Of a stretch of 64,000 bases of DNA, positions 53,103-56,205 are shown in pieces. The notes under the pieces were generated by a model. That model made no database searches. It worked only from the letters and a program-made list of their open reading frames with translations, and was not told the DNA's origin. This stretch comes from Embleya scabrispora DSM 41855 (GTDB taxonomy: Bacteria; Actinomycetota; Actinomycetes; Streptomycetales; Streptomycetaceae). A program made the translations under genes and the position numbers. The number at the start of each line of letters is the position of its first letter. Within the stretch, counting starts at the first letter, position 1. The stretch is taken from positions 124,001 to 188,000 of the forward strand of contig NZ_KB889651.1 in assembly GCF_000372745.1 (NCBI RefSeq). The letters run 5' to 3'.

Positions 53103-53519
53103 TCAGCGTTCGGACCCCGGGCCGAGGACGGGTTTGACGTCCAGGATCGGGGTGCCGTCGATCGCTTCGAGATTGCGTACGTGCAGCCTGAGGCCGTCGA
53201 CCGCGGTGAGCACGACCCGGTGCAGTCCGATCGGGTTCGGCCGGTCCGGCGAGCGGGTGCTGAACACGCCGGTGGCCGGCCGCTCCCGGTCACCGCGCGG
53301 ATGCACGCTCAGCACGTCGCGGCCGGCCCGGTCCAGCCAGGTCAGCAGGACCACCTCGTCGCCCGCGCGCAGGTCGCCGAGTCCCGCGCGCACCTCCTCC
53401 TCGAACACGAGCCACGCGTCGGGCGCCCCCTCGTCGGCCTGCCGGGGTGCCGAACTCCGGTCCACGAGCGTCGATTCGACCCTGCCGATGGGTCGCACCG
53501 TGTACACGTCCCGGGCCAT
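53103..53519 (-). CDS. trmO: tRNA (N6-threonylcarbamoyladenosine37-N6)-methyltransferase TrmO (UPF0066)
   Basis: A 138-residue SAM-dependent enzyme of the UPF0066/TrmO family that methylates N6 of t6A37 in tRNA. The hallmark blocks are VRPIGRVES at the N-terminus, VLLTWLDRAGRDVLSVHPRGD, FSTRSPDRPNPIGLH, and DGTPILDVKP. The start was set at MARDVYT because GGAGG lies 8 bases upstream; a GTG three codons earlier is too near. It lies downstream of trpS on the same strand, 54 bases after its stop. Confidence 0.92.
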   Translation of the reverse strand: MARDVYTVRPIGRVESTLVDRSSAPRQADEGAPDAWLVFEEEVRAGLGDLRAGDEVVLLTWLDRAGRDVLSVHPRGDRERPATGVFSTRSPDRPNPIGLHRVVLTAVDGLRLHVRNLEAIDGTPILDVKPVLGPGSER

Positions 53520-53573
53520 CGGGACCACCTCCTCGTTGCGAGCCGCCGGGCCGTGCCGCCGGCGGATCGTCGC

Positions 53574-54719
53574 TCAGTAGAGGCTCATCATCGCGCTTCG
53601 CACCTCGCGCAACGTCGCGTCGGCCACCGCGTTCGCCCGCTCGTTGCCCGCGTGCAGGATGCGCCGGACCTGGCCGAGGTCGCGCGCGTACTCGGCTCGA
53701 CGCGCCCGGATCGGGGCCAGGAACTCGTTGACCGCCTCGGTGACGGTGCGCTTGAGCGCGGCGGCGCCCGCCGTACCGATCTCCTCCGCGACCCGGTGCG
53801 GGTCCCGGTCCTGACACAGCGCGGCCAGCAGGACCAGGCCCGAGACCTCCGGACGGGTCGTCGGGTCGTAGGTGATGTGCCGGTCGGCGTCGGTCTTGGC
53901 GCCCCGGATCAGCTTGGCCGTCTCGTCCGCCGTTGCCGCGAGGGCGATCGAGTTGCCTCGGCTCTTGCTCATCTTGGTGCCGTCGGTGCCGAGCAGCAGC
54001 GGCGCGGCCGACAGCAGCGCCTCGGGTTCGGGGAAGACGGGTCGTCCGCCCGCCGGGTAGCGGTCGTTGAATCGGCGGGCGATGGTGCGGGTGAGCTCCA
54101 GATGCGGCAACTGGTCCTGGCCGACCGGGACCAGATTGCCCTTGCAGAACAGGATGTCGGCCGCCTGGTGCGCGGGATAGGTGAACATCAACCCGCTGAC
54201 GGCGGCCTGTCGCGAGTGCGCGATCTCGTCCTTGACGGTCGGATTGCGGCTCAACTCGGCGACCGAGACCAGGCTGAGAAACGGCAGCAACAACTGGTTG
54301 AGCGCCGGGATCGCGCTGTGCGTGAAGATTGTGGTCCGGTCCGGGTCGATCCCGACGGCCAGGTAGTCGAGCAGCAGGCCCTCGACGTACTCGACCAGGT
54401 GGTCCGCGACATCGCGATCGGTGAGCACCTGGTAGTCGGCGATGATCAGGTATTGCTCGACGCCGAGGTTCTGCAGGCGCACCCGGTTGTGCAGGGTGCC
54501 GAAGTAGTGGCCCAGGTGCAGGCGTCCTGTCGGGCGGTCTCCGGTGAGTACGCGAAAAGCCCCGGGTTCACGTCGAATCCGCTCTTCGAGCACCACACTT
54601 CGGGCCTGCGCGGCGCTCGTCCCGATCACATCCGTGACATCCATCGAGTCCGCCGAGGCGGCCGGTGTCGCGGGGATTGTGACAGTCGCGTCGGCCGCGC
54701 TGTTCGGTGTGCCGTTCAT
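53574..54719 (-). CDS. trpS: Tryptophanyl-tRNA synthetase, auxiliary (indolmycin-resistant type)
   Basis: A 381-residue class I tRNA synthetase that charges tRNA-Trp. A low-complexity N-terminal extension (about 1-50) precedes the Rossmann core with HLGHYFGTL (68-76, HIGH motif) and GTKMSKSRGN (KMSKS, 249-253). Residues aligning with the indolmycin-sensitivity positions differ from the sensitive type: Arg62 replaces Gln9, and Gln97 replaces His43 (Bacillus numbering, aligned by eye). With the trp leader, this fits the auxiliary Streptomyces enzyme TrpRS1. AGGAGAAG lies 7 bases before the ATG. Confidence 0.95.
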   Translation of the reverse strand: MNGTPNSAADATVTIPATPAASADSMDVTDVIGTSAAQARSVVLEERIRREPGAFRVLTGDRPTGRLHLGHYFGTLHNRVRLQNLGVEQYLIIADYQVLTDRDVADHLVEYVEGLLLDYLAVGIDPDRTTIFTHSAIPALNQLLLPFLSLVSVAELSRNPTVKDEIAHSRQAAVSGLMFTYPAHQAADILFCKGNLVPVGQDQLPHLELTRTIARRFNDRYPAGGRPVFPEPEALLSAAPLLLGTDGTKMSKSRGNSIALAATADETAKLIRGAKTDADRHITYDPTTRPEVSGLVLLAALCQDRDPHRVAEEIGTAGAAALKRTVTEAVNEFLAPIRARRAEYARDLGQVRRILHAGNERANAVADATLREVRSAMMSLY

Positions 54720-54782
54720 GATCTCTTCTCCTGGTCGACAGGTCGGTCGCCGTCCCGACGGCACCGCCCCGAACCAGGGCAC

Positions 54783-54810
54783 AAAAAAGGGCCGTCCGTC
54801 CGAACGACCC
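54783..54810 (-). terminator. Attenuator terminator in trpS leader
   Basis: On the minus strand a 7-bp stem GGGTCGT/ACGGCCC (one T:G pair) with an 8-base loop is followed by six T residues. It lies 34 bases after the tandem Trp codons of the leader peptide and 64 bases before the trpS start. An alternative pairing of GGTCG at 54805-54809 with CGACC at 54824-54828 would prevent it. Confidence 0.85.
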
Positions 54811-54831
54811 ATGCAAAAACGATGGTCGCCC

Positions 54832-54873
54832 CTAAGTGGAGCGCCACCAACTCGAACCCCCTGCACACAACAT
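54832..54873 (-). CDS. Trp leader peptide of trpS (ribosome-mediated attenuator)
   Basis: A 13-codon ORF encoding MLCAGGSSWWRST, with two adjacent Trp codons at positions 9-10 and a TAG stop. It is too short for standard ORF calling. A G-rich stretch lies directly upstream as a weak Shine-Dalgarno. When charged tRNA-Trp is scarce, the ribosome would stall at the TGGTGG codons, which favours the antiterminator and lets trpS be read. This matches the known attenuation of auxiliary trpS in Streptomyces coelicolor. Confidence 0.88.
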   Translation of the reverse strand: MLCAGGSSWWRST

Positions 54874-55359
54874 CCCCCCACCATACCGCCCCTCTCCCGA
54901 CGACAGACCCGCCCGACCCGGTCGCGATGGGCGCGTGGTCGGGCGGGCTTCACTGCATCGTCGGGTCGACGGGCTTCGGAGTGGCGGCGGGCCCGAGGTG
55001 TTCGTGCTTGCCCGGGGCACGGTGGCGGCCGTCGACGTCGGATCCTGCCGGCCCGGAACGGGTTCGGCGGCACGACGGGCGAACTGATGGCCGCCGCGCA
55101 GCGCCCCGCGCCGGCCGTTGAGCGCTTGCGCACAATTACCGTGTTTCCCGACACGATCCCCCGAAATCCTGTTCACTTTGCGCCCCCGGCCACCCCCGAC
55201 AGGCCCCTCATCTGCGGGGCTTCCGCCGAAAACGCCCCATCGGCCTTCCCTGGGGCGCTACCGTCGCCTATAAGGACCCGATGCCCACAGGCTCGATCCG
55301 TCCACGCTGCCGACCCCGGGTGGCGGGTCCGGAACACCCGCCAGGAAAGGCCCACCGCC
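54874..55359. other. Divergent promoter region of trpS leader and kinase-like gene, 486 bases
   Basis: No credible further ORF was found. TATAAG at 55269-55274 with TTCCCT 17 bases upstream is a possible promoter of the kinase-like gene, about 85 bases before its start. The trpS leader promoter should lie in the left half, but no clear hexamers are visible. Confidence 0.5.
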
Positions 55360-56205
55360 GTGCCGCACCCACTGCTCGACGCCATCGACACCACGCAGGA
55401 TCCGGCCGATTTCCTGCGCTCGATCGGAACCGTGCACACGACCTTCGGCGACCAGGATTCGGGTGCGGTCTCCTACGGTGTGCACGCCGAGGGCAACTGG
55501 TTCGTCAAGACCGGCCCCAACGCGGCGTCCGCGCTGTGCCTGCGCCGCGCGATCGAGTTGCACGCGCACGTCCGGCACCCGGCGATCGTGCCGGTGCTGC
55601 ACTCGTTCACCGCCAACGGCATCCCCGTGACGGTGGGGCCGTGGCACGCGGGCGAGGTGCTGTATCACTCGACGGTCAAGCGCGCGGGCAAGCAATTGCG
55701 CACCGGCGCGGCCTCGCCGCTCGCCCGCTTTCGCGCGCTGCCGCTGGATGACGTGCACGCGGCACTGGACGCGATCCTCGACGCGCACCGCCTGATCGAC
55801 GCGGCCGGCTACGTCGGGGTGGACTGGTACGACGGCTGCGTCCTCTACGACTTCGCCGCCCGCCGGGTGCACCTGATCGACCTGGACGAATACCGCAGCG
55901 CGCCGTTCGTGCTGGACACCGCCCGGCTGTCGGGGTCCACCCGCTACATGCCGCCCGAGCACAGCCGCCGCGGCGCGCTGGTCACCCGGGCGGGCACCGT
56001 GTTCCTGCTCGGCCGCACCCTGCGCCTGCTGCTGGACGCGGGCGACGAGGAGCGGGCCTGGCGCGGCACGCTGGCCCAACTCGCCGTGGTCGAGCGGGCG
56101 ACCCGGCGCGACCCGGCCGAGCGCTATGCGAACGTCACCGAACTCTTCGACGCGTGGTGCGCGGTCGCGCCCGCGGGCCTGCTCTCCGGCAGCCGTCGGG
56201 TCTGA
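55360..56205 (+). CDS. Serine/threonine protein kinase-like protein
   Basis: A 281-residue small kinase-fold protein. The N-lobe has FGDQDSGAVSYGVHAEGNWFVKTGPN (VK as candidate ATP lysine) and LCLRRAIELHAHVRHPAIVPVLHSF. The catalytic loop is GYVGVDWYDGCVLYD rather than HRD, and IDLDEYRS stands at the DFG position (D-x-D-E). These replacements are shared by an actinomycete kinase-like subfamily, so activity is plausible but not sure. The GTG was chosen because AGGAAAGG lies 9 bases upstream. It is convergent with the ROK remnant. Confidence 0.8.
   Translation: MPHPLLDAIDTTQDPADFLRSIGTVHTTFGDQDSGAVSYGVHAEGNWFVKTGPNAASALCLRRAIELHAHVRHPAIVPVLHSFTANGIPVTVGPWHAGEVLYHSTVKRAGKQLRTGAASPLARFRALPLDDVHAALDAILDAHRLIDAAGYVGVDWYDGCVLYDFAARRVHLIDLDEYRSAPFVLDTARLSGSTRYMPPEHSRRGALVTRAGTVFLLGRTLRLLLDAGDEERAWRGTLAQLAVVERATRRDPAERYANVTELFDAWCAVAPAGLLSGSRRV

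Follow-up and report, generated by a model that had tools for sequence, protein, structure and literature searches.

A probable ribosome-mediated attenuator upstream of an auxiliary tryptophanyl-tRNA synthetase gene in Embleya scabrispora and its relatives

How might a bacterium switch on a back-up tryptophanyl-tRNA synthetase (TrpRS) when charged tRNA-Trp runs low? The question is raised by a trpS gene of the soil bacterium Embleya scabrispora that lies behind a very short open reading frame with two adjacent Trp codons. In the E. coli trp leader, the classical attenuator, tandem Trp codons are coupled to the logic of three helices (i.e. 1:2, 2:3 and 3:4), and these elements are common to the Embleya leader. 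In E. coli, by contrast, a ribosome binding site serves the leader peptide, and the operon under control is the biosynthetic one. There is also no sequence similarity between the two, and the Rfam Trp_leader family does not match the Embleya leader.

Closer precedents exist in Streptomyces. A classical attenuator was predicted for trpS2 of S. avermitilis (Seliverstov et al. 2005, PMC1262725); by its description this resembles the Embleya case, lying ahead of a second TrpRS gene in Streptomyces. In S. lividans TK24 a leader, trpL2, ahead of trpS has been mapped as leaderless by RNA-seq (PMC8079986). With this system we group, as the closest known, the auxiliary TrpRS of S. coelicolor, for which Vecchione and Sello (2010, cited in PMC4787780) report, to go by the title, ribosome-mediated attenuation of an auxiliary antibiotic-resistant TrpRS. 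Ribosome-mediated attenuation of trpS is thus already known in Streptomyces, and it is the clade-level picture presented below that may be new.

A Trp-codon leader and its conservation

The window, i.e. the whole stretch analysed, comprises 64,000 nt of the forward strand of E. scabrispora DSM 41855 (GCF_000372745.1, NZ_KB889651.1, positions 124,001-188,000), and all positions given here are counted within it. The leader peptide MLCAGGSSWWRST has 13 residues and is encoded on the minus strand at 54832-54873 by the codons ATG TTG TGT GCA GGG GGT TCG AGT TGG TGG CGC TCC ACT TAG, the start codon being 54873-54871 and the stop codon 54834-54832. The two adjacent Trp codons, the regulatory ones, occupy 54844-54849. 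An intrinsic terminator hairpin follows on the same strand at 54789-54810, found by a terminator scan and in the alignment described below. Its stem of 9 bp, six of them G-C, pairs 54810-54802 with 54797-54789 around a loop at 54801-54798, and a run of six T residues comes directly after it (54783-54788). The trpS gene (53574-54719, minus) starts with the ATG at 54719, preceded by AGGAG. Direct reading therefore bears out the order of elements in the first-pass annotation, from the 13-residue frame with its adjacent Trp codons to the hairpin, the six T residues and trpS. The gap of 34 bases that it placed between leader and hairpin was too long; 21 nt separate the stop codon from the stem. Directly 3′ of trpS is the gene for TrmO, a tRNA t6A methyltransferase (53103-53528, minus), which may be co-transcribed with it.

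Relatives were gathered by protein similarity, the presence of a leader not being a criterion. This gave 30 loci from 61 relative genomes together with 80 named loci, and removal of duplicates and of other TrpRS types left 103 loci of the window's TrpRS type. An equivalent leader, with the majority form MHLSSCLSWWRSS, is present at 97 of these. Five leaders (at L014, L023, L024, L027 and L098) were missed by the automatic detector and were confirmed by a relaxed scan. Leaders are found in Streptomyces, Embleya, Streptosporangium, Nonomuraea, Microbispora, Planotetraspora, Microlunatus, Labedaea, Kutzneria and Saccharopolyspora; the putative attenuator is strongly conserved over several actinomycete families.

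Six of the 103 loci lack a leader. At two (L036 and L099) a transposase or integrase coding sequence occupies its place, so that trpS has possibly been freed from attenuation. At the remaining four (L054, L081, L083 and L108) there is no detectable leader and no insertion was seen, the upstream sequence for L083 and L108 being short.

In an alignment of 91 leaders the Trp codons hold their register with the hairpins although the neighbouring codons vary. The pair WW is retained in 83, and the remainder have WR or RW. We note that one Trp codon has turned into an Arg codon in the leaders of L070, L082, L101 and L020-L027, suggesting that a single Trp codon may suffice.

The spacing of promoter and start codon is fixed as well. 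In the window the -10 hexamer TATGGT (54880-54885, minus) precedes the leader ATG by 6 nt, and the -35 region is weak. Across 96 leaders a TANNNT box is found either 6 nt (85 leaders) or 7 nt (11 leaders) ahead of the start codon. The detector demanded such a box 4-8 nt upstream, so the evidence lies in the concentration at 6-7 nt and not in the presence of the box. In L012 and L013 the leader is longer by one or two codons, and the -10 box shifts along with the start codon. A pyrimidine (C or T) occupies position -1 in 98% of the leaders. The start codon is ATG in 85 of the 96 and GTG in 11, and nothing resembling a Shine-Dalgarno sequence was seen. The mean distance from -10 element to start site in S. 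lividans promoters is 6.3 nt (PMC8079986). The spacing of the -10 box and the lack of a Shine-Dalgarno sequence fit a leaderless mRNA, from which the peptide is probably translated, transcription probably starting at or beside the leader ATG. The first-pass annotation does not mention this likely coincidence of the two starts.

Alternative helices in the leader RNA

Three helices are predicted for the leader RNA, each supported by the 91-leader alignment and by computed folds. The 5′ arm of hairpin 1:2 (54838-54849, minus) has the Trp codons inside it, and its 3′ arm (54820-54832) has a bulged A at 54826. Segment 2, GGGCGACC (54824-54831, minus), falls within that 3′ arm. It can pair instead with segment 3, GGTCGTTC (54802-54809, minus), which otherwise forms the bulk of the terminator's 5′ arm (54810-54802). 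The first-pass annotation had proposed pairing of 54824-54828 with 54805-54809; the pairing is upheld, but its extent is 8 bp and not five, 54831-54824 being opposed to 54809-54802.

The proportion of alignment cells that are paired is 95.4% for hairpin 1:2, 99.6% for terminator 3:4 and 98.6% for the 8-bp antiterminator 2:3. When the register of the antiterminator was slid, pairing was at most 61%. There are 19 cells with double changes in the antiterminator, a number reached in none of 500 shuffles, although the shuffles leave the relatedness of the sequences in place and this inflates the statistic. The co-varying variants include CGCCTC/GAGGCG, CGCTTC/GAAGCG and CGTCCC/GGGACG. In the three Embleya sequences a G-C pair of the antiterminator is replaced by A-U, a change that serves the antiterminator only: the base concerned is bulged in hairpin 1:2 and makes a U-G wobble in the terminator.

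Hairpin 1:2 has an outer extension (54811-54866, minus, in the window) in which leader codons pair with the spacer. It is variable, as long as 11 bp in certain species and rich in G-U pairs in the window. It shows two-sided changes in the alignment, and scores 15.86 compared with 14.11 ± 0.26 in a control in which leaders and spacers were swapped. RNAalifold missed both the antiterminator and this variable helix, because it outputs a single structure.

Folding of the minus-strand leader RNA had been put forward as a check in the first-pass annotation, and the folds computed with ViennaRNA match three states of the ribosome. The free window RNA folds as hairpin 1:2 plus the terminator. With a ribosome placed at the stop codon the terminator forms. 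When the Trp codons are masked and arm 4 is absent, the 8-bp antiterminator forms at -13.0 kcal/mol. One calculation counts against the model: with the Trp codons masked and arm 4 present, the minimum-energy fold retains the terminator. Antitermination would therefore have to be kinetic; the antiterminator precedes synthesis of arm 4 in all six cases displayed. The weak -35 element and the four loci with neither a leader nor a visible insertion also speak against the model.

The leader thus combines a tandem-codon reading frame, an intrinsic terminator before the gene, a covarying antiterminator that shares an arm with the terminator, and a hairpin 1:2 over the regulatory codons. With compensatory changes in the alternative helices, a fixed position of the Trp codons and a fixed spacing of promoter and start codon, the earlier proposal of ribosome-mediated trp attenuation gains considerably, and the Embleya trpS leader is very probably a classical ribosome-mediated transcription attenuator.

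Could the arrangement be a random tandem-Trp frame beside the terminator of an upstream gene? Tandem Trp codons in a short frame are no rarity in themselves, two such frames being present in the window where 2.5 are expected. One that is followed by a hairpin and T-run, however, is found once in the 64 kb (i.e. the leader itself), and 40 Markov-shuffled windows contained none. The terminator at 54810-54789 is the only terminator-like site on either strand of the 1.4-kb neighbourhood 54000-55400, and on reading the list of open frames the plausible upstream coding frame, which is kinase-like, lies on the opposite strand to the leader. Retention of the leader at 97 of 103 loci and the compensatory changes in its helices also argue against coincidence, which we regard as extremely improbable. 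Hardly more credible is a leader RNA of another kind (a T-box, a ligand riboswitch or a protein-bound leader) in which the WW peptide is incidental. A terminator with an alternative pairing would fit any RNA that attenuates transcription, yet Rfam gave only sub-threshold chance matches, with no family near threshold, and the T-box and Trp_leader covariance models did not match the leader at E values up to 10. Nor would this account for Trp codons that remain in register with the hairpins while the flanking codons change.

The synthetase and its relatives

The protein encoded behind the attenuator is a TrpRS by TIGR00233. The nearest solved structures are those of the Deinococcus TrpRS II, 1yi8 and 2a4m (242 and 241 bits), the next best scoring 190. 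By its sequence the enzyme belongs to an Arg/Gln type that forms a separate clade, closest to Deinococcus TrpRS II. Where all 48 aligned TrpRS of the Gln/His type hold Gln and His, the enzyme carries R62 and Q97. From their position in the alignment we take these sites to correspond to Gln9 and His43 in Geobacillus TrpRS and to contact indolmycin. The altered residues that the first-pass annotation had noted at the two indolmycin positions are thus confirmed, and the enzyme is probably insensitive to indolmycin. A second TrpRS in the Embleya genome (C127), the housekeeping copy, is of the Gln/His type. The S. griseus enzyme SGR_3809, which is reported to be indolmycin-resistant (PMC6804068), may be of the same type as that of the window.

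On a tree with 84 rows, leader presence requires four changes, compared with 24.9 for shuffled labels. Trp leaders occur in the clade of the window's enzyme and in a separate clade of the Lys/Thr type (14 of 14 rows), while none of the 47 rows of the housekeeping clade has one. A divergent row outside both auxiliary clades (L201) has no leader. Three additional loci with the Lys-type motif all have a leader; a more divergent one (L208) is without. The window TrpRS was considered as a Lys-type auxiliary enzyme and rejected, since it has Arg at the site equivalent to Gln9 and falls in a separate clade. The Lys-type enzymes, presumably of the S. coelicolor TrpRS1 type, have a leader type of their own, e.g. 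MTSRALTHLWWAA (L130, L173, L184, L186, L191, L195, L196, L198, L200 and L205-L207), which has the same helix logic as the window leader but different sequences.

It is to this second clade that the mapped S. lividans system seems to belong. Like the window, trpL2-trpS has a leader of 13 residues with Trp towards the end, then hairpins and a TrpRS gene, and its start is leaderless, as that of the window probably is too. Its leader MMTRTCTQLWRAA, however, has one Trp and lacks a U-rich tract, where the window leader has two Trp codons and six T residues. It resembles the leader MTTRTCTQLWWAA of the Lys-type locus L200, not the Arg/Gln type, and we infer that the mapped attenuator serves the Lys-type clade. 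The Streptomyces precedent invoked in the first-pass annotation holds for the mode of control, while the window TrpRS is not of the type found behind the mapped leader. We suggest tentatively, at somewhat less than even probability, that two auxiliary TrpRS clades of actinomycetes (the TrpRS II-like Arg/Gln clade and the Lys/Thr clade) each lie behind their own leaderless Trp attenuator, of different sequence and the same helix logic, and housekeeping TrpRS do not. The attenuator would then be found repeatedly alongside back-up synthetases, the one at the TrpRS II-like clade being hitherto undescribed.

A different role for the same attenuated enzyme, in place of antibiotic insensitivity, would be the one reported for Deinococcus TrpRS II: partnership with nitric oxide synthase (NOS), for nitration of Trp or under stress. 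The Deinococcus enzymes are the nearest solved relatives, and the Embleya genome has a NOS gene (L204, at G000:C180:103456-104481). Among 61 genomes, 18 have both genes, 10 only the TrpRS and 8 only NOS (Fisher p 0.002, the related genomes not being independent). Against this, 10 of the 28 genomes with the window's TrpRS type have no NOS, the Embleya NOS gene is on a contig other than that of trpS, a back-up synthetase fits a switch responding to Trp starvation more directly, and the resistant S. griseus enzyme is possibly of this type. With many genomes having one gene without the other, we keep the NOS partnership as a rival and not as the main role; it is unlikely, though far less so than the two alternatives to attenuation discussed above.

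Attenuation finds further support in Trp leaders at other genes. The covariance model scored the window leader at 62.2 bits in the Embleya genome, with the next match at 23.6 bits. The latter is a second Trp leader, VIAISFHRSSWWPVPAAAH (L112, G000:C114:114144-114252, plus strand), before a chorismate-binding, anthranilate-synthase-like gene. It is the Embleya equivalent of the S. lividans trpE leader trpL1, MFAHSTRNWWWTAHPAAH (PMC8079986), which is a leaderless Trp leader with a terminator, as the window leader probably is; the Streptomyces trpE leader differs in controlling biosynthesis and in its peptide and hairpin sequences. In other actinomycete families the model matched leaders ending in WWPAS or WWRAS (L123, L124, L125, L129, L131 and L134). 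That of L123 precedes trpD, and trpE-like (chorismate-binding) genes lie behind others. These matches place the leader in the relevant pathway, which supports attenuation, and there is apparently a widespread set of leaderless Trp attenuators in actinomycetes. Matches that had no Trp leader (among L114, L127, L128, L132, L133, L135-L141 and L143) were set aside by eye as apparent look-alikes of the terminator. The leaderless polycysteine short frames of mycobacteria (Canestrari et al. 2020, as cited in PMC13236596) are likewise actinomycete attenuators that respond to an amino acid; they differ in sensing cysteine, and Seliverstov et al. found no intrinsic terminator.

Proposed mechanism and its significance

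In the mechanism that we propose, transcription would begin at or beside the leader ATG. When charged tRNA-Trp is ample the ribosome would clear both Trp codons, reach the stop codon and cover segment 2, so that the 3:4 terminator halts transcription ahead of trpS. When charged tRNA-Trp is low, whether Trp is lacking or the housekeeping TrpRS is inhibited, the ribosome would stall at the Trp codons and open hairpin 1:2. Segment 2 would then pair with segment 3 and keep the terminator from forming, and the cell would make the auxiliary TrpRS, which is probably insensitive to indolmycin. In an untranslated leader, hairpin 1:2 would sequester segment 2, giving termination by default. The alignment of 91 leaders leaves this helix model open to direct mutational test.

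Such an arrangement would be a compact, drug-inducible resistance switch: inhibition of the housekeeping enzyme lowers charged tRNA-Trp, and the substitute enzyme would come on. The association of the attenuator with auxiliary and not housekeeping synthetases suggests a route to other genes of target duplication.
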